Positions 11,760 through 49,741 of a stretch of 49,741 nt of DNA are shown here, in pieces. The number at the start of each line of letters is the position of its first letter. Position 1 is the stretch's first letter. This DNA is from Candidatus Eisenbacteria bacterium. Lineage in GTDB: Bacteria; Orphanbacterota; Orphanbacteria; Orphanbacterales; Orphanbacteraceae. The notes under the pieces are model-generated. The model made no database searches and was not told the DNA's origin. It saw nothing but the letters and a program-made list of their open reading frames with translations. The DNA lies in contig VGIW01000018.1 in assembly GCA_016867715.1 (NCBI GenBank), positions 1 to 49,741 on the forward strand, in the 5' to 3' direction. The translations under genes and the position numbers were made by a program.

Positions 11760-14700
11760 TCAACGAATCATGAGCATCTTGCGGTTCGCAGAGAACCCGG
11801 GCGCCTCCATCCGCACAAAGTAGACGCCGGATCCGACCGCGCGACCGGCCTCGTCGATTCCGTCCCAGGTCGCGGAGAACAATCCCGCCTTTTCCTCTTC
11901 ATCCCGCAAGATCTTCACGAGCCTCCCCGAGAGATCGTACACAGCGAGCCGCACGCGCCCCGGTTTGGGAAGCGCGTATCGAAACGTCGTTGCTGGGTTG
12001 AACGGGTTCGGCATGTTCGCGTAGAGCGCATGCCGCTTCGGAAGAGGCGGACCGCCGGCGCCGGAGAGACCCCCCGGTTCCACCAACACGATCGATTGGT
12101 TCGCCGCGATGCCCGTCGTGTCGCTCACCGCACCGCTCGGCCAGTAGACCCGGACCGAGTCGATCGTCGCCGCGGAACCGAACCCGAACTCCGCGGCGAG
12201 CGAGTTCTGCGAGCCGAAGCCTGAGCCCCCCGAGATCTCCCGGATCTGCGCGACTCCGCCGGCGACCGCGCGCACGCGCGCGCCGATCGCCGCGCGGTTC
12301 GAGACGCTCCCGACGAGAGAGACGCGAAGCCACCGGTTTCCGTCGGATGCGTCGTTCCGGAAGAGCGCGTTCGGACCTCCCGCGTTCGCGAGGTAGAGAT
12401 CGAGATCGCCGTCGTTGTCGTAATCGCCCCACGCGGCCCCCGCGCCCGACTCGGCGTCTCGAAGACCGACTTCCGTTTCGTCGGTGAACGCGCCGCTTCC
12501 TTGATTCTTCAACAGAATGTTCGATCCGGACTGCGCGACAAAGAGATCGAGCTTGCCGTCGTTGTCGTAGTCCGCCCACGCGGCGCCGACGCTCGGCCCT
12601 TCATCGCCGAGAGGCCCCGCCGTCGCGTCGACGAACACGCCCCCGTCGTTTCGGAGAAGACGGTTCGCGGTCCCGTCGTTCGCGACGTAGAGATCGAGAT
12701 CGCCGTCGTTGTCGTAATCGCCCCAGTCGACCCCGTACGAGATCCCGTCGTCTCCGAGCGGCCCCGTCGTGACGTCCGTGAAGGCACCGCCCCCATCGTT
12801 TCGGAAGAGGCGGTTCGCCCCGAAGCCGTTCCCGAGGTAGAGGTCCGGATCCCCATCGTTGTCGTAGTCCCCCCACGCCGCGGAGAGCCCGAACCCGAAC
12901 GGGTCCTGCAGAACCGTCGGCGTCGTGTTCGTGAACGAACCGCCCCCGTTGTTCCGCAAGAGCAGGTTCGCCGAGCCCGCGTTCGCGACGAAGAGATCGA
13001 CGAAGCCGTCCCCGTCGTAGTCCCCCCAGACGCCCGCGAAGGCATAGCCTGCGTCGGCGAGCGGACCCGTCGTAGCGTCCGCGAAGGTCCCGCCGCCGTC
13101 GTTTCGGAAGAGCTTGTTCGGACCTCCCTCGTTCACGAGATAGAGATCGAGGTCCCCGTCGTTGTCGTAGTCCGCCCAGGCCGCGCCCCTGCCGTCGGAG
13201 AGATCGCCCATCGGCCCCGACGTCGCGTCGGAGAACGAACCGCCGCCATCGTTTTGGATTAGGACATTCGCTCCTCCGAGGTTCGCGACATAAAGATCCT
13301 CGTCGCCGTCGCCGTCGAAATCCCCCCACGCGATTCCTTGAGAACTCCCTGCGTCCGCGAGCGGCCCTTCCGCGACGTTCACCCAAAGCGGCTGCGGCTC
13401 AACGATCGAGAGCGCTTGATCGGCGGAGACGCCGGCCATGACCTGGATCGTTCCGCTCGGCCAACGAACCTCGATCGTGTCGACCAGCGAGGCCGCGCCA
13501 AGACCGAACGCCGCGACGAGAGGGTTCTGGCCGAGGAAGCCGTTCCCGCTTGCGATCTCCCGGATCTGCGCGAGCCCTCCCGCCACGACGCGCACGCGCG
13601 CGCCGATCGCCGCGCGGTTCGAGATCCGTCCCTCGAGCGCGACGTGTATCCAGTGCGCTCCGCTCGCGAGATCGTTCCGAAAGAGCCGGTTCGTTCCCAG
13701 ATTCGTGAGATAGAGATCGAGGTCGCCGTCCGCGTCGATGTCCGCCCACGTGACGCTTTGGCCGTAACCCGGGTCGAGCAGCGCCTCGTTCGCCGCGTCG
13801 ACGAAGACACCGGATCCTTCGTTCCGAAAGAGCCGGTTGTACCCGTTGTTGGCGAGGTAGAGATCGAGGTCGCCGTCGTTGTCGTAGTCGAGCCAGACCG
13901 CCCCGTATCCGATCCCCGGATCGCCGAGAGGACCGCTCGTCGCGTTGGTGAAGACGTTGCCTCCATCGTTCCGGAGAAGCTGGTTCGCCCCGCGGTTCGT
14001 GATGTAGAGATCGAGATCGCCGTCGTTGTCGTAGTCGCCCCACGCGGCGCCCGATCCGATGCCCGCATCTCCGAGAGGCCCGGTCGTCCCGTCCGAGAAG
14101 GAGCCGTTTCCGTTGTTCACGAAGAGCTTGTTCGCGCCGTTCCGCACGAGGTAGAGATCCGGATCGCCGTCGTTGTCCGCGTCCGCCCACGCCGCTCCCG
14201 ACTTCCCGCCGGTCGAGGCGAGAAGCGTCGTCGTGGCGTCCGCGAAGGTCCCGTTTCCGTTGTTCCGGAAGAGACGGTTCGAGCCTGTGCTGTTCACGAG
14301 ATAAAGATCGACGTCGTTGTCTCCGTCGTAATCGGCCCAGGCGGCGGAGCGTCCCGTCCCGTTGTCGTCGATCGGCGCCGCCGCGATGTTCGTGAAGACG
14401 CCGCCCCCGTCGTTCCGGAAGAGCCGGTTCGCGGCATCGCCGTTCGCGACGTAGAGGTCGAGGTCTCCGTCGTTGTCGTGGTCCGCCCATGCGACGCCGT
14501 AGCTCGATGCGACATCTTGAAGCAGGAAGTTTTCGACCGCGACGAACGAACCGCTCTGGTTCTCGAGAAGCCGGTTCGCATCATCGCTGTTCGCGAGGTA
14601 GAGATCGAGATCGCCGTCCCCGTCGAAATCGCCCCATGCGGCGCCGCGCCCCTCGCCCGGATCGCCCAGCGGGAGATCATCGAGCGCCGTGAACGCGGTG

Positions 14701-17700
14701 GACGGGTCCACGGGCGGCACGATGCCGAAGACGGCGTCGCTCGTGTCGGCGGCGGAGCCTTCCGCGTTGTAGAGAATCACGCGCACGAGCGCTTCGAGCG
14801 TGGGCCAGTTCGGGATCGTCCACGGGAGAGATCCCCCCCCGTCGCCGGGAAGCGAATCCGCGAGCGGAACCCACGACGCGCCTCCGCCCGTGTTGTACTC
14901 CACCGTGTGCGCGGTCGCCGGATCGCCCGTGTTTGTCCAGACGATGCTCTCCACGCTTCCGATCTCCCACCGCTCGCCGCCGTTCGGCGAGACCACGCGC
15001 GGGATCGGAACCGCGAGAATCGAGAAGACCCCGTTGCTCGCGTCGCCGCCGCTTCCGTCCCCGTTCTCCATCGTGACGCGCACGAGCGCCTGATCGGTCG
15101 GGGTGCTCGGCACGGTCCATGAGTAGCTCCCGCTCCCCGGGCCCGTCTCGTAGTGGACCGAGTCCCAATCCGTCCCCGCGTTCGTCGAGTACTCGATGAA
15201 CCAGCTCTCCGCCACGCCGCCGTTGTTCGTCCAGTGGATCGTTCGCACCGAACCCTGACCCCATTTCTCGCCGCCGTTCGGAGAGAGGAGCGCGACGACG
15301 GGAGGGGCAAGCTCGCGGATGGCGTACACGGTGTCGACCGCGAGGTTCGTGAAGGTCTTCTCGAGACCGGAAGGCCATGTCACCCGCACCGAGTCGATGA
15401 TCGACGCGCTCCCGAGACCGAACTCGGCGTCGAGCGAACCGTGCGAAAGATAGCCCGACCCGCCGTCGATCTCGCGGATTTGCGCGGCGCCGCCCGCGAC
15501 GAGACGAACGCGCGCGCCAATCGAGGACGTGTTCGACACGACGCCGATCACACGCAAGCGGACCCAAGAGGCGGCCGGCGCCGAGAGGTTCTGGAACAAA
15601 CGGTTCGCTCCGTTCTTGGCGAGATAGATGTCGACAAGACCGTCCCCATCGTAATCGGCCCACGCCATTCCCCGCCCGCTCCCCGAATCGCCGAGCGGAT
15701 CCGGCGTCGCATCGACGAAGACGCCCCCGTCGTTGCGGAGAAGACGATTCGCGGAACCGTCGTTTACCACATAGAGATCGAGATCGCCGTCGTTGTCCGC
15801 GTCGGCCCATCCGGTCCCCGTTCCGTTCCCCGCGTCGCCGAGAGGGCCGCTCGTCGCGTCGACAAAGACGCCGCCCCCGTTGTTCCGAAGAAGAACGTTA
15901 TCCCCGATGTTCGTCACGTAGAGATCGAGATCGCCGTCGTTGTCGTAGTCGCCCCACGCCGCGCCGCGTCCGTTTCCCGCGTCGCCGAGCGGGCCGCTCG
16001 TCGCGTCGACGAAGACGCCGCCCCCGTCGTTCCGAAGAAGAGCGTTACCCCCGTCGTTCACGATGTAGAGATCCGAGTCGCCGTCGTTGTCGTAGTCGGC
16101 CCACGCGACTCCGTGCCCGTTCCCGGCGTTGCCGAGGGGGCCGCTCGTCGCGTCGACGAACACGTTCCCGCCGTCGTTCCGCAAGAGGACGTTCGTCCCG
16201 TTGTTCGCGATGTAGAGATCGAGGTCCCCGTCGCTGTCGTAGTCGATCCAGGCGCAGCTTCTCCCCTCGCCCGCGTCCCCGAGGGGGCCCGATGTTTCAT
16301 CCGAGAAGGAACCGCCGCCGTTGTTCCGGAGAAACTTGTTGGCTCCGTTGTTCGCGATGTAGAGATCCAAGTCGCCGTCGCCGTCGGAATCTCCCCACGA
16401 CGCTCCCGCTCCGGCTCCGGCGTCCCCGAGCGGACCGCTCGTCACATCTTCGAATCCGAGCGCACCGTTGTTTCGGAGGAGGCGGTTCGCCGTTCCGACG
16501 TTCACGATGTAAAGATCCGGATCCCCGTCGCCGTCATAGTCTCCCCACGCGACCCCCGCGCCGTCTCCGGCGTCCGCGAGCGGCCCCAGGGTGGCGTCGC
16601 GCCAGCCGCTGAAGAGGAGCGCCCGCTCCGCGTTCACGAATCCCCAGCCGAAGATGTTGTCGAAGCCAGGGCTCCCGAGATCCACGCACGTGTAGGCGAG
16701 GATTCTCTCCACCGCGTCGGCGGGGAGCGTCGGGTCCTTCGAGAGAAGAAGAGCGGCGACGCCCGCCGAGTAGGGGGAGGCGAAGCTCGTTCCGTCTACG
16801 AACACGTAGTCGGCGGACGAGTAGCCGGCGGAGCCGACGCGATCGGTCGTGTAGACGTCCGTTCCCGGTGCGGAGAAGGCGAGCCCCGAGCCGTAGTTGC
16901 TGAACGAGGCCTTGGCGCCGCTCGGCGTGAGGGCGGCGATCGACTGCACGGTGGGGAGCGACGACGGATATCCGAGCCCCTCGACGCCGTCGTTCCCCGC
17001 GGAGGCGAAGTGGACCATCCCTCCGGCGCGCGTCGAGGCGTACTTGTCGTTCAGCGCGGTGCTCGGCGCGCCGTATGAATTGCTGTTGTTCGTGACGCGC
17101 GCTCCCTGATTCTCCGCCCAAGCGAGCGCGTTCACGGTCCAGCTCACCTGTCCCGACCAGGTCCCATCGCAAGGAACGGTGGCGACCCCGATGCGCGCGG
17201 AAAGAACCTTGCAGTCGGGAGCGATGCCGACCGTCCCGAGCGCGTTGTTGATGATCGCCGACACGCAGCCCGCCACCGCGGTCCCGTGGTTGTCGCACTC
17301 GTTTCCCGGGCCTCCTCCCGTCGGCTGCCCCGTGAAGTCGCGGCCGGGGAGCTGGTTCAAGTCGGGATGATCCTGCTGCACGCCGGTGTCGAGGATGAGG
17401 ACCTTGATCGACGCGCTTCCGGTCGTCGTGTCCCACGCCGCATCCCCGTCCATGTCCATGTCCGGCACGCCGCCGAACTGCCCCGTGTTGCGGATCCCCC
17501 AAAGGTCGCCGAATCCGGGATCGTTCGGGATGAACTCGGACCGACCGGTAATCAAGAGGTCCGGTTCCGCCCAGGAAACGCGCGGATCGCGCGCGATGAG
17601 GTTCGCGAGCGCGAGCACGTCGAAACCGTTCTTCGTCGGCGGCCGGAAGCGGAAAGCCCCGTCCATCCCTCCGAACGGCTCGAGAGGAGCCGCGAGGTCC

Positions 17701-18134
17701 TCTGATAAAGAGCGAACGATCCTCTCCGGATCCGTTCCGCGCTCCGGATCGGCGCGGAAGAGAATGTCCTGCGTCATGGCGACGAGACCGAAGTTCGGTC
17801 CCTTGAACACCGGGGAGACGAACTCAACGCCGGGCGCCTGGGCGACGGCATCGATCCGGTTGTTCATATCCGAAGCATTCTTCGCGGGCGAGTCGAACAG
17901 GAGGAACCGCCAGCGATCGAGGGGGGCGCGTTTCGTCGTCCCTCCCGCGAAGAAAGCTCCTCCGTCGAACTTCTCGAGCGATCCCTCTTCGAGCAACACG
18001 AGAAGGCGCGTCTCGTCCAATTCGAGCGAAAGCTCGCGTCCTTGGTAGACGTAGTGGGTGGGCGGGGCGGCGGCGGCCGCGCCGGAGAGCGCGAAGAGAA
18101 GAGCCGCGAGAAGAGCTCGATAGAGGCTCGGCAT
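11760..18134 (-). CDS. Giant secreted subtilase with three 7-repeat propellers
   Basis: The 2124-aa product has a signal peptide (MPSLYRALLAALLFALSGAA), a pro-region, and an S8 peptidase domain (about 205-500) with an intact catalytic set: Asp249 (LILDTGV), His283 (NHGTAVAG), Asn381 (SAGNDG) and Ser450 (DGTSFASP). Three blocks follow, each with exactly seven FG-GAP units of the 'DYDNDGDLDLY' calcium-binding type, each capped by an ASPIC/UnbV domain ('IGARVRLVAGG...WPSG'). Two Ig-like 'SPNGGE.W' domains separate blocks 1 and 2. The C-terminus is a FlgD-like sorting tail ('NMPNPFNP', 'YDLSGRLV', 'GVYFVRMEA'). The design suggests a cell-surface or released protease with long adhesive arms. AAGGAG lies seven bases before ATG 18134, and a strong promoter lies upstream. 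It has no stop or frameshift, unlike its convergent relative. Confidence 0.92.
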   Translation of the reverse strand: MPSLYRALLAALLFALSGAAAAAPPTHYVYQGRELSLELDETRLLVLLEEGSLEKFDGGAFFAGGTTKRAPLDRWRFLLFDSPAKNASDMNNRIDAVAQAPGVEFVSPVFKGPNFGLVAMTQDILFRADPERGTDPERIVRSLSEDLAAPLEPFGGMDGAFRFRPPTKNGFDVLALANLIARDPRVSWAEPDLLITGRSEFIPNDPGFGDLWGIRNTGQFGGVPDMDMDGDAAWDTTTGSASIKVLILDTGVQQDHPDLNQLPGRDFTGQPTGGGPGNECDNHGTAVAGCVSAIINNALGTVGIAPDCKVLSARIGVATVPCDGTWSGQVSWTVNALAWAENQGARVTNNSNSYGAPSTALNDKYASTRAGGMVHFASAGNDGVEGLGYPSSLPTVQSIAALTPSGAKASFSNYGSGLAFSAPGTDVYTTDRVGSAGYSSADYVFVDGTSFASPYSAGVAALLLSKDPTLPADAVERILAYTCVDLGSPGFDNIFGWGFVNAERALLFSGWRDATLGPLADAGDGAGVAWGDYDGDGDPDLYIVNVGTANRLLRNNGALGFEDVTSGPLGDAGAGAGASWGDSDGDGDLDLYIANNGANKFLRNNGGGSFSDETSGPLGDAGEGRSCAWIDYDSDGDLDLYIANNGTNVLLRNDGGNVFVDATSGPLGNAGNGHGVAWADYDNDGDSDLYIVNDGGNALLRNDGGGVFVDATSGPLGDAGNGRGAAWGDYDNDGDLDLYVTNIGDNVLLRNNGGGVFVDATSGPLGDAGNGTGTGWADADNDGDLDLYVVNDGSANRLLRNDGGVFVDATPDPLGDSGSGRGMAWADYDGDGLVDIYLAKNGANRLFQNLSAPAASWVRLRVIGVVSNTSSIGARVRLVAGGAAQIREIDGGSGYLSHGSLDAEFGLGSASIIDSVRVTWPSGLEKTFTNLAVDTVYAIRELAPPVVALLSPNGGEKWGQGSVRTIHWTNNGGVAESWFIEYSTNAGTDWDSVHYETGPGSGSYSWTVPSTPTDQALVRVTMENGDGSGGDASNGVFSILAVPIPRVVSPNGGERWEIGSVESIVWTNTGDPATAHTVEYNTGGGASWVPLADSLPGDGGGSLPWTIPNWPTLEALVRVILYNAEGSAADTSDAVFGIVPPVDPSTAFTALDDLPLGDPGEGRGAAWGDFDGDGDLDLYLANSDDANRLLENQSGSFVAVENFLLQDVASSYGVAWADHDNDGDLDLYVANGDAANRLFRNDGGGVFTNIAAAPIDDNGTGRSAAWADYDGDNDVDLYLVNSTGSNRLFRNNGNGTFADATTTLLASTGGKSGAAWADADNDGDPDLYLVRNGANKLFVNNGNGSFSDGTTGPLGDAGIGSGAAWGDYDNDGDLDLYITNRGANQLLRNDGGNVFTNATSGPLGDPGIGYGAVWLDYDNDGDLDLYLANNGYNRLFRNEGSGVFVDAANEALLDPGYGQSVTWADIDADGDLDLYLTNLGTNRLFRNDLASGAHWIHVALEGRISNRAAIGARVRVVAGGLAQIREIASGNGFLGQNPLVAAFGLGAASLVDTIEVRWPSGTIQVMAGVSADQALSIVEPQPLWVNVAEGPLADAGSSQGIAWGDFDGDGDEDLYVANLGGANVLIQNDGGGSFSDATSGPMGDLSDGRGAAWADYDNDGDLDLYLVNEGGPNKLFRNDGGGTFADATTGPLADAGYAFAGVWGDYDGDGFVDLFVANAGSANLLLRNNGGGSFTNTTPTVLQDPFGFGLSAAWGDYDNDGDPDLYLGNGFGANRLFRNDGGGAFTDVTTGPLGDDGISYGVDWGDYDNDGDLDLYVANDGTANRLLRNDGGVFVDATAGPLGDEGPSVGAAWADYDNDGKLDLFVAQSGSNILLKNQGSGAFTDETEVGLRDAESGAGAAWGDYDNDGDLDLYLANAGGPNALFRNDASDGNRWLRVSLVGSVSNRAAIGARVRAVAGGVAQIREISGGSGFGSQNSLAAEFGFGSAATIDSVRVYWPSGAVSDTTGIAANQSIVLVEPGGLSGAGGPPLPKRHALYANMPNPFNPATTFRYALPKPGRVRLAVYDLSGRLVKILRDEEEKAGLFSATWDGIDEAGRAVGSGVYFVRMEAPGFSANRKMLMIR
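12330..13400 (-). repeat. FG-GAP block 3 (seven repeats)
   Basis: Seven in-frame units of about 150 bases encode 'D[YF]D[NG]DG..DL[YF]' motifs and lead into the third ASPIC/UnbV domain. The DNA of neighbouring units is similar enough to be a substrate for recombination. Boundaries are approximate. Confidence 0.8.
13660..14700 (-). repeat. FG-GAP block 2 (seven repeats)
   Basis: Seven units, including variants 'DHDNDGDLDLY', 'DYDGDNDVDLY' and 'DIDADGDLDLY', precede the second ASPIC/UnbV domain. Boundaries are approximate. Confidence 0.8.
15560..16612 (-). repeat. FG-GAP block 1 (seven repeats)
   Basis: Seven units, starting with 'DYDGDGDPDLY' and ending with the degenerate 'DYDGDGLVDIY', directly follow the protease domain and precede the first ASPIC/UnbV domain. 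Boundaries are approximate. Confidence 0.8.
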
Positions 18135-23161: not shown

Positions 23162-23347
23162 CTAGCCTAGATTGTGCACGCGTTTTCGTCGCGAGGACGC
23201 GGAGCGCGTGCAGAGAGGCCGACCTGGACGAGCCGCTCCCGGAAGCGTAGCCCCGGAGCTACGCTCTAGGAAGCGGCGACGGAAGGGAGGCCTCTTGAGG
23301 CCGCGATCCGCGGCCGCAGTAGGAAACGCGTGCATAATCTAGGCTAG
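23162..23347. repeat. Long structured inverted repeat bounded by CTAG
   Basis: The arms 23162-23185 and 23324-23347 match at 23 of 24 positions and begin and end with CTAG. The enclosed 138 bases are also highly self-complementary: AGCGTAGC/GCTACGCT (23244-23251 and 23258-23265) closes a six-base loop, surrounded by GCCGCT/AGCGGC and GAGGCC/GGCCTC pairs. The element fills the gap between the convergent pepF and TonB genes and contains the TonB stop codon (TAG, 23346-23344). It may be a bidirectional terminator, a MITE that inserted there, or both. Confidence 0.7.
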
Positions 23348-47402: not shown

Positions 47403-48617
47403 ATGGCCATCAGCGATCCGAAAACGTTCTATCGCAAGCTCGACGCCCTTCTCTCGAAGATCCAGATCGCTTCGGGAGTCAAGCATCAGGAGCTGATCTC
47501 CACCGTGCTCCGCGACCTCGTGGAGGAGTTCGGCCAGGAGCTCTCGATCCGGAACGGGCGCGCCTACGAGATCATCGGCGGCGAGCTCGTGCTCATCTCC
47601 GATCGGAAGAGCCCGATCGCCAGCCCGCAGGGCTTCCGCCTTTCGATGGACTACCCGCCCGTCCGCCTCCTCCTCCAACACCGGTGCTACATCTTCGACG
47701 CGGCGACGCCCGGCATCGATCCGGCCTTCGAGCAAGAGGTCGTGGGCGGCACGACTTCGGCCGCGATCGTCGTCGGAGGCGAGAGGGAGTGGGTGCTCGC
47801 GTTCGGTCTCGCCGAGGGATGGGAGCGGGAGACGATCGAGTTCTCGCTGAACGCGATCCGGAACGCCCTCGGTTATCGCCTCGAGCATGAGTGGCTCCGG
47901 GCGGATCTCGAGGAGACGCGCACGATCCAACGAAGCCTCTTCCCCGACCGCATCCCGTTGTTTTCCGGATACGAAATCGCCGCGCGCGCCGAGACCACCG
48001 AGGTCGTCGGCGGGGATTTCTACGACTTCATTCCGCTCGACGAGGAGGTGATGGGGATCGCGGTGGGCGACGCGAGCGGCCACGGTCTCCCCGCGGCGCT
48101 TCTCGTGCGCGACGTCGTCACGGGGCTTCGCATGGGCGTCGAGAAGGACATGAAGATCACGCCGGCGCTCCGGAAGCTGAACGCGGTGATTCATCGAAGC
48201 ACGCTCTCGACGAAGTTCGTCTCTCTCTTCTACGGCGAGCTCGAACGAAACGGAAACTTCATGTACGTGAACGCGGGGCACAACCCGCCGTTTCTCGTCC
48301 TCGACCGCGGCGTGTTCCGGCTCGACGTCGGCGGCTCGGTTCTCGGACCGCTCCCCGAGATCCGCTTCAAGCGCGGCTTCGCGCATATCGATCGGGGCGG
48401 GCTTCTCGTGGCGTTCTCCGACGGCATCATCGAGAGGGCGAACCGAAAGGGAGAGCAGTTCGGGGAGGCGCGTCTTCAGGACACGATTCTCGCGAACCGC
48501 GGTCTCTCCGCGAAAGAGATCCTCGATGCCGTCTTCCGCGCGGCGCTCGACCATACTCGCTCCCGATGGGAGGATGACGCCACGGTCGTCGTCGTCCGCC
48601 GCCTCTCTTCGCGATGA
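47403..48617 (+). CDS. SpoIIE/RsbU-type serine phosphatase
   Basis: The 404-aa protein probably dephosphorylates an anti-sigma-factor antagonist in a partner-switching system. An N-terminal GAF-like sensor (about 25-160) precedes a PP2C-type phosphatase domain (about 165-400). Metal-binding residues are visible: Asp205 and Asp208 ('VVGGDFYDF'), Asp223 ('GIAVGDASGHG') and a C-terminal Asp pair ('WEDDATVVVV'). No anti-sigma factor or STAS protein is nearby. GGGAGG lies six bases before ATG 47403. Its stop overlaps the start of the PLD-like gene (ATGA). Confidence 0.92.
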   Translation: MAISDPKTFYRKLDALLSKIQIASGVKHQELISTVLRDLVEEFGQELSIRNGRAYEIIGGELVLISDRKSPIASPQGFRLSMDYPPVRLLLQHRCYIFDAATPGIDPAFEQEVVGGTTSAAIVVGGEREWVLAFGLAEGWERETIEFSLNAIRNALGYRLEHEWLRADLEETRTIQRSLFPDRIPLFSGYEIAARAETTEVVGGDFYDFIPLDEEVMGIAVGDASGHGLPAALLVRDVVTGLRMGVEKDMKITPALRKLNAVIHRSTLSTKFVSLFYGELERNGNFMYVNAGHNPPFLVLDRGVFRLDVGGSVLGPLPEIRFKRGFAHIDRGGLLVAFSDGIIERANRKGEQFGEARLQDTILANRGLSAKEILDAVFRAALDHTRSRWEDDATVVVVRRLSSR

Positions 48618-49138
48618 CCGAAGGCCCGCCGATCCGCTTCCTCCGAGACGAAGAGCACTACTCGATCGTGGTCGAAGAGGGGATGCTCGCGGCGCAGGAG
48701 TCCGTCCGGATCGCGACCGCCAACGTCAAGGAGATCCGGATTCGGAAGGGAAAACGTTACGTCTCGATCGTTCGCGCCTTTGAGGAGATGGCGGAGCGCG
48801 GCGTGTTGATCCGGATCCTGCACGGCGCGCCCCCGTCGCGGAGATTCCGCGAGGAAATCGACGCGAGCGGCGTTCTCTCGTCGAGCGAGCGCTTCGAGAT
48901 GCTCTTCTGCCCGCGCGCTCATCTCAAGATGGTTCTCGTGGACGGCGCGTTTCTCTATGCGGGGAGCGCGAACTTCACCGGGGCCGGTCTCGGCGTCAAG
49001 AAGCCGGAGAGGCGGAACTTCGAGATCGGGTTCGCGACGAAGGACCCCGCGATCGTCCGCCTTCACGCATCGATCTTCGACGAGATCTGGTCCGGCGCCT
49101 TCTGCGATTCCTGCGGGAGGAGGGAGTATTGCAGGTAG
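48614..49138 (+). CDS. Phospholipase D-like protein, single HKD motif
   Basis: The 174-aa protein has one PLD motif: His103, Lys105 and Asp110 in 'HLKMVLVDGAFLYAGSANF', with Asn120 of the GSxN part. Single-motif members usually act as dimers and include nucleases as well as lipases. No signal peptide or membrane segment is seen. The C-terminus carries three Cys in 'CDSCGRREYC', a possible metal site. ATG 48614 overlaps the phosphatase stop, so the two are translationally coupled and probably work in one pathway. Confidence 0.85.
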   Translation: MTEGPPIRFLRDEEHYSIVVEEGMLAAQESVRIATANVKEIRIRKGKRYVSIVRAFEEMAERGVLIRILHGAPPSRRFREEIDASGVLSSSERFEMLFCPRAHLKMVLVDGAFLYAGSANFTGAGLGVKKPERRNFEIGFATKDPAIVRLHASIFDEIWSGAFCDSCGRREYCR

Positions 49139-49348
49139 GGGGGTGAAAGCGCGGACCGCGGGCCCCGCCCATGGTGGTGCAGCCACGCGTGCGTGGCTTG
49201 CGGTCGATCTTGACGAGCCCGCCGCGTTTCCCGTCTCGCACAGTTCTTTCTTGCATCGCGTTGCAGGTTCTCGATCCTCGGCTCAACGCCCGGGATGTCC
49301 CGTTTCCCCTTGCATGGATATCTGTTATGGTGGAACAGTCGAATGGTA
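49139..49348. other. Region between the PLD-like gene and the cassette-like repeat
   Basis: No coding or RNA gene is visible here. The last 50 bases are less GC-rich than the surroundings and contain GTTATGG before the core site at 49349, which recalls attI sites, but this is weak. No TTCTAAC box precedes the core site, so it is not the end of a recognisable upstream attC. Confidence 0.35.
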
Positions 49349-49406
49349 GTTAGAAAGCATGGGTGGGCGGCGTGTTCTTGGAGAGTCGCGGGAGTTCCCG
49401 CGGCCG
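49349..49406. repeat. 58-bp direct repeat, copy 1
   Basis: The 58 bases starting GTTAGAAAGCATGGGTGGGC are identical to 49684-49741, 335 bases downstream. The first seven bases are the core-site-like GTTAGAA. The second half contains one arm of a CGCGGGAGTT/AACTCCCGCG palindrome completed at 49416. Confidence 0.95.
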
Positions 49407-49684
49407 AGAACTCCCGCGATCGACGCTGTGAGAGAGGGAACACAGAAGTCGTCAGCGGTTTGCGACGAACCCTGTGGTCGCTCCGCCGCCTAGCGCCGGC
49501 GGTGGGACGCAGGTCCCCGAAGAGAACCTCGTGCTCGGAGTGCTCCGAGCAAGGCGCTAGGCGGACGGTGGTCGCGATCGCTGCGTCCTCTTTCTAACTC
49601 GCGCCTGCAGCGGGCGGGGCGGGGGCCGGAGGTGAATCCAATCCGATTCCCCCTCCCCTTCCCGCCCCGCCGCTGAGGCGCCCG
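49350..49684 (+). mobile_element. Putative 335-bp gene cassette
   Basis: If recombination occurs between G and TT of GTTAGAA, the unit between the two core sites is 335 bases. It contains no convincing protein: a 44-codon ORF (ATG 49359 to TAG 49493) begins ten bases after the core site, and a longer frame ends with TAA inside the TTCTAAC box, both of which are typical of cassettes, but neither reads like a protein. The DNA is very self-complementary: CCGCCTAGCGCC (49486-49497) pairs exactly with 49553-49564, and CTCGGAGTGCTCCGAG lies between. A structured-RNA cassette is possible. Confidence 0.45.
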
Positions 49685-49690
49685 TTAGAA
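49592..49690 (+). mobile_element. attC-like recombination site
   Basis: The outer boxes are TTCTAAC (49592-49598) and GTTAGAA (49684-49690), exact inverse complements; pairing extends to CTTTCTAAC/GTTAGAAAG. Two-base unpaired spacers follow, then GCGCCT/AGGCGC (49601-49606, 49676-49681), CAGCGG/CCGCTG and CGGGGCGGG/CCCGCCCCG. Two Gs, 49607 and 49614, are unpaired on the 5' arm only, like the extrahelical bases that guide integron integrases. GCCGCTGA (49669-49676) matches the conserved left-inner segment of known attC sites. Deviations are the last core base (A instead of C or T) and the short spacer. No integrase gene is in the window. Confidence 0.55.
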
Positions 49691-49741
49691 AGCATGGGTG
49701 GGCGGCGTGTTCTTGGAGAGTCGCGGGAGTTCCCGCGGCCG
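49684..49741. repeat. 58-bp direct repeat, copy 2 (runs off the end)
   Basis: This copy is identical to 49349-49406 and reaches the last base of the window, so the true repeat may be longer. It may be a second copy of the same cassette, or the assembly may have stopped at a tandem repeat. Confidence 0.95.

Follow-up and report, generated by a model that had tools for sequence, protein, structure and literature searches.

The right end of the window, the 49,741-nucleotide stretch of DNA analysed here, appears to be a cassette platform set apart from its integrase, and the intact IntI encoded on a separate contig of the same genome (C80) very probably acts on it in trans (probability about 0.78). 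Integrons are normally described with a single attI beside intI. The wider arrangement suggested by these loci, for which we would give somewhat better than even odds, is a distributed integron: one IntI and scattered attI modules of ~190 bp that spread without intI, may stay similar within each genome, and provide several chromosomal addresses for cassettes.

An attC-bearing array headed by an attI homolog

The window is the entire contig C18 of a 172-contig draft genome. At its right end, a PLD-like gene is followed by an orphan attI, a 335-bp cassette with an attC, the start of an identical cassette, and the end of the contig:

48614..49138, + strand: PLD-like protein gene, chromosomal left flank of the array (Pfam PLDc_2, 54.8 bits)
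49160..49349, + strand: orphan attI module, ~190 bp (homologous blocks on C80 and C60, and four more in the sibling species G001)
49350..49684, + strand: first cassette, 335 bp, gene-less, with an attC at its 3' end (two G|TT cores, identical starts)
49592..49690, + strand: attC site (R'' 49592-49598, R' 49684-49690, extrahelical G 49607 and G 49614)
49685..49741, + strand: beginning of another, identical copy of the cassette, truncated where the contig stops (remaining 58 bases identical)

The site at 49592-49690 is a genuine attC. The original prediction had placed it at exactly these coordinates on the basis of inverse cores, paired arms, Gs on one arm only, a length of 99 bp, and an inner GCCGCTGA segment, and all of these were confirmed. 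The R'' core TTCTAAC and the R' core GTTAGAA are perfect complements of each other; compared with RYYYAAC/GTTRRRY they keep the invariant AAC/GTT, while the first base of R'' (T) and the last base of R' (A) fall outside the strict consensus. The inner arms pair except for two extrahelical Gs, both on the 5' arm and separated by 6 bp, as expected of an attC (L'' arm only, ~6 bp spacing). Across the 49.7 kb of the window, TTCTAAC occurs once and GTTAGAA three times, and the fold of the site gave z = -6.9 for both strands. For comparison, loci with integron integrases were taken from named genomes across many phyla and scanned with a structural template (cores, spacer, stem, extra base, six pairs, extra base, five pairs), which found 22 matches in these 683 kb of other bacteria, as against none after shuffling; its single match in the window was 49592-49690, with the top possible score. 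The covariance check proposed alongside the original prediction was run with a model built only from 20 attCs of other organisms, rather than with that of IntegronFinder. Covariation in the alignment of these 20 sites was strong (94% of its cells were paired, versus at most 39% in slid controls), and the window site scored 29.6 bits over its full length with no non-standard pair (E 1e-4 in 140 kb, 0.0026 at the scale of the whole genome). MicroRNA-like hairpin matches to the same site were all below threshold in Rfam and were rejected as chance fits to a palindrome.

A second core one unit upstream had likewise been predicted, and the core at 49349 does lie exactly 335 bp before the R' core, with the 58 bases after each being identical. 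This upstream core is the junction between attI and cassette, not a second attC. The recombination point falls after G 49349 (G|TT), while the left edge of the module is approximate, beginning ~20 bp past the PLD stop codon. A conserved hairpin within the module was considered and dropped, since z lay between -0.1 and -1.2 in three copies.

No convincing ORF was found in the 335-bp cassette, itself present in near-identical copies. A protein-coding role was dropped because, in our reading, each of the five differences among copies would be non-synonymous in the one long frame. In Vibrio and Treponema, cassettes without genes often contain promoters (PMC11014356); the present cassette is similarly small and without a convincing ORF, and here stands first at two attI sites, but unlike those cassettes it has no predicted consensus promoter. 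A promoter or regulatory RNA in this cassette, as in gene-less ones elsewhere, is a guess.

The array of the window genome is broken at the contig end, and its middle is not seen. Judging from the flanks, the array runs on from C18 into contig C52 (reverse complement), the two forming opposite sides of one array, because a single contig of the sibling species G001 (C334) spans both flanks. C52 carries the same attC as the window, together with the right flank found after the array in C334. Against the minimum of at least two attCs used to define a CALIN, there is thus one in the window and one on the other side of the array, with the gap between the contigs unseen.

Conservation of the locus in a sibling species

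G001:C334 carries the locus on one contig, with the same left flank, an orphan attI, other cassettes, the same right flank, and no intI. Identity to the window is 89% over 4.9 kb of left flank, up to 49158, and ~91% to C52 over 2.8 kb of right flank; the PLD-like gene that borders the module in both species matches at 479 of 525 bases. Downstream of its module, C334 carries a cassette that combines a 325-aa ORF with a 38.3-bit attC; next come a lectin-like ORF and the C52-type flank. By this comparison, the locus is conserved while its cassettes have changed between the two species.

As originally predicted, no intI lies to the left of the attC, nor is there one anywhere in the 49.7-kb window. 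Measured against a complete integron (intI and attI with one or more attCs at a single locus), the locus has attI and attC and lacks intI. We call the site an orphan attI because intI is absent from both the window and the contiguous sibling locus: on sequence homology it is related to the intI-adjacent attI, and with no intI beside it is not a standard attI. The prediction of an attC without an integrase at the start of an array therefore held, the spanning sibling contig also being without intI, whereas its description as an integrase-less cluster or the edge of one did not, as the array is headed by an attI homolog and an intact IntI is encoded on C80.

Dispersed attI modules and the IntI of C80

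The search for an IntI and for further attC hairpins in the same genome, which had also been proposed, recovered both, along with unlike cassettes. A single full-length IntI is encoded at C80:350-1294 and matches the TIGR02249 profile with 481 bits against a cut-off of 265. It aligns end to end with VchIntIA (2a3v), additional domain included, and is an IntI by the usual definition of a tyrosine recombinase with the IntI-specific additional domain. In the IntI tree it groups with enzymes of Krumholzibacteriota, Acidobacteriota, Elusimicrobiota, and Rokuibacteriota, at a distance from most of those of Proteobacteria, a placement that does not identify the phylum. The gene is transcribed toward the contig end and is followed by an attI module and the start of the window's cassette (92 of 94 bases identical). 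The same 335-bp cassette hence begins at two attI sites in one genome, C18 and C80.

Three copies of the attI module were found in the window genome, on C18, C80, and C60. On C80 the module lies between intI and the first cassette; in the window it lies between the PLD-like gene and the 49349 core. Four more occur in G001, one directly 3' of intI on C261 and the others on C334, C78, and C328. In all seven copies homology stops at G|TT, and the downstream sequence differs except for one common cassette, as expected of attI sites with different cassettes. The left ends of the copies roughly coincide, at a position that on C80 and C261 is ~60 bp 3' of intI. Sites of 38.3 and 36.2 bits follow the modules of C334 and C78, respectively, in the same orientation. 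On C78, the cassette after attI encodes a CAP12-type TIR protein and has the 36.2-bit attC; a TmtA-like protein comes next. In the window genome, the C60 module has a GTCGG core instead of GTT and is followed by a small ORF and a 23-bit attC. The C328 module precedes a gene encoding a NorB-like (nitric-oxide-reductase) protein, and no attC was found there.

The genomes are metagenome-type drafts. A different attI type was present in a second genus, G005, where the copy linked to IntI stands at the head of an array with three attCs and a 997-kb contig carries two orphan copies. No attC was found at the orphan copy at 806 kb, and only a 15.4-bit attC at that at 815 kb. The G005 intI (L119 6590-7551, G005:C28) has a frameshift close to its 3' end that divides it into two tblastn pieces in different frames, and is either a pseudogene or an assembly error. 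A genome of Krumholzibacteriota whose IntI is related served as a control, and there the region after intI was single-copy. No attI motif common to other integron clades was found, and tblastn detected no intI remnant at the orphan loci.

In a multiple alignment, the G001 modules of C261, C334, and C78 were 82 to 84% identical to each other and 56 to 65% identical to those of the window genome. The modules of the positional pair C18/C334 were 65% identical, compared with 91% for the adjoining PLD gene, while those of C18 and C80 shared 72%; a pairwise alignment of C18 and C334 with cheap gaps matched 138 of 173 columns. This pattern weakly suggests homogenization or co-adaptation of modules within a genome, the alignments being short and gappy and C328 not fitting. 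On the public contig G001:C261, the terminal AGATCGGAAGAGC (L109 3122-3134) is what we take to be Illumina adapter sequence.

Elsewhere in the window genome, C14:1-5700 (L126, L017) is a large CALIN in which toxin-antitoxin cassettes (Phd antitoxin, HigBA, MazE-PemK, and RHH-PemK) are found between attC sites. A single attC is present on C1.

Probable action in trans and competing explanations

From the comparison of these loci, we infer that IntI, encoded on C80 beside its own attI, recombines cassettes at the orphan sites and that these sites are active at present. Cassettes would be excised through recombination of the folded bottom strand of attC and inserted at the G|TT of one or another of the dispersed attI modules, thereby landing at several chromosomal loci. 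The module itself would have spread as a unit. Several features weigh against action in trans, namely C328 without an attC, the weak or absent attCs of G005, the GTCGG core of C60, the split intI of G005, and the unseen middle of the array.

Alternatively, a complete integron could have degraded: the intI-attI-array would have been duplicated, one copy losing intI and leaving a relic CALIN that is now inactive. CALINs are usually taken as degraded integrons (PMC9024848), and the orphan attI is indeed homologous to the intI-linked one. We consider this unlikely. The tblastn searches detected no trace of intI at any orphan locus, the ~20 bp between the PLD stop codon and the module leave no room for one, and the roughly common starting point of the copies also speaks against such decay. 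Cassettes at the locus also differ between the two species, which argues that it stayed active after their split, and even an ancient duplication with clean loss of intI would leave IntI acting in trans. Insertion at an attG-type secondary chromosomal site, with no attI involved, would draw on the reported ability of IntI to place cassettes at genomic sites other than attI (PMC12901181; PMC12444791). An attG site is unrelated to attI and would not predict what is seen here, where homology to the intI-linked attI and to five further copies within the genus covers the ~190 bp that precede the junction and ends there; we regard this explanation as very improbable.

The dispersed block might instead be a promoter or regulatory repeat that precedes genes, its match to G|TT being incidental, and the C328 copy upstream of a NorB-like gene without a detected attC is compatible with that. 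This too is highly unlikely, given that both intI genes (C80 and C261) are followed by the block and then a cassette, that good attCs follow the C18, C334, and C78 copies, that all homology ends at the recombination point, and that no sigma-70-type promoter was predicted in 49100-49741. Finally, a unit that is repeated and located at a contig end could be an ordinary satellite, the alternative raised with the original prediction, or an assembly artefact, in either case mimicking attC. This is refuted on present evidence by the covariance score and canonical extrahelical bases, by other attCs with unlike cassettes elsewhere in the genome, and by the independent G001 assembly, which has the same PLD-attI junction. 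Moreover, the modules of C18 and C80 are just 72% identical, so C18 is no chimera of C80.

Taking action of the C80 IntI in trans as the preferred explanation, we conclude that the arrangement goes beyond a mere CALIN and very probably represents an integron variant with several attI platforms per IntI. Its novelty is provisional, since our finding of no report of orphan attI platforms concerns the open full-text literature, with subscription papers mostly outside it. Like CALINs as described in PMC12444791 and PMC9024848, the window locus has attC cassettes, no nearby intI, a conserved chromosomal position, and an intI elsewhere; unlike them, it has at the head of its array a complete attI module with homology to that beside intI. 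Xanthomonas CALINs also sit at conserved loci, and the passages of PMC12444791 that describe them mention no attI. IntegronFinder is presented in PMC9024848 as lacking attI detection outside class 1, so orphan attI sites could have been overlooked. In the reverse-orientation chromosomal integrons of Treponema, intI is transcribed toward attI, with only one attI per integron (PMC3607928). The same orientation toward attI and cassettes is seen at C80, G001:C261, and G005:C28, whereas several attI copies here lie away from intI. In mobile integrons, delta-attI cassettes also place attI sequence away from its position adjacent to intI (PMC12901181); there, short attI fragments replace attC at the cassette end, whereas here a full ~190-bp module heads an array beside chromosomal genes. 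Secondary attG sites similarly hold cassettes at chromosomal places outside the intI locus, but they diverge from attI (PMC12901181; PMC12444791), in contrast to the ~190 bp of homology at the window site.

If this explanation is correct, integrase-less cassette arrays would be read as platforms in use rather than relics, and several attI sites with one integrase would offer cassettes a route to several chromosomal loci. Both trans action and module dispersal would become directly testable. The potential cargo includes anti-phage-like genes at one orphan site of the sibling and the toxin-antitoxin genes in the CALIN of the window genome. At the former site (L134 1306-5594, G001:C78), it is the CAP12/Pycsar-type TIR protein and the TmtA-like protein that resemble anti-phage defence proteins.

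Two dispersed repeats were also observed. A dispersed repeat of ~184 bp occurs in the window (23163-23346), at C14:5688-5876, at L105 1162-1321, and at L133 11693-11874. It resembles a MITE, with 18-bp terminal inverted repeats (GCTAGCCTGGACTATGCA) in the copy on C14, which is located at the end of an attC-like palindrome. A second repeat of ~95 bp, 85 to 90% identical among copies (L133 4552-4648, C14:2757-2852, L105 1458-1548, and L134 5619-5711), adjoins cassettes in C14 and C334. Within the window, 11760-18134 on the minus strand encodes a protein of 2124 aa in which a subtilase domain is combined with ASPIC/UnbV domains and many FG-GAP repeats; much of its repeat region accounts for the 147-bp tandem repeats in the DNA.
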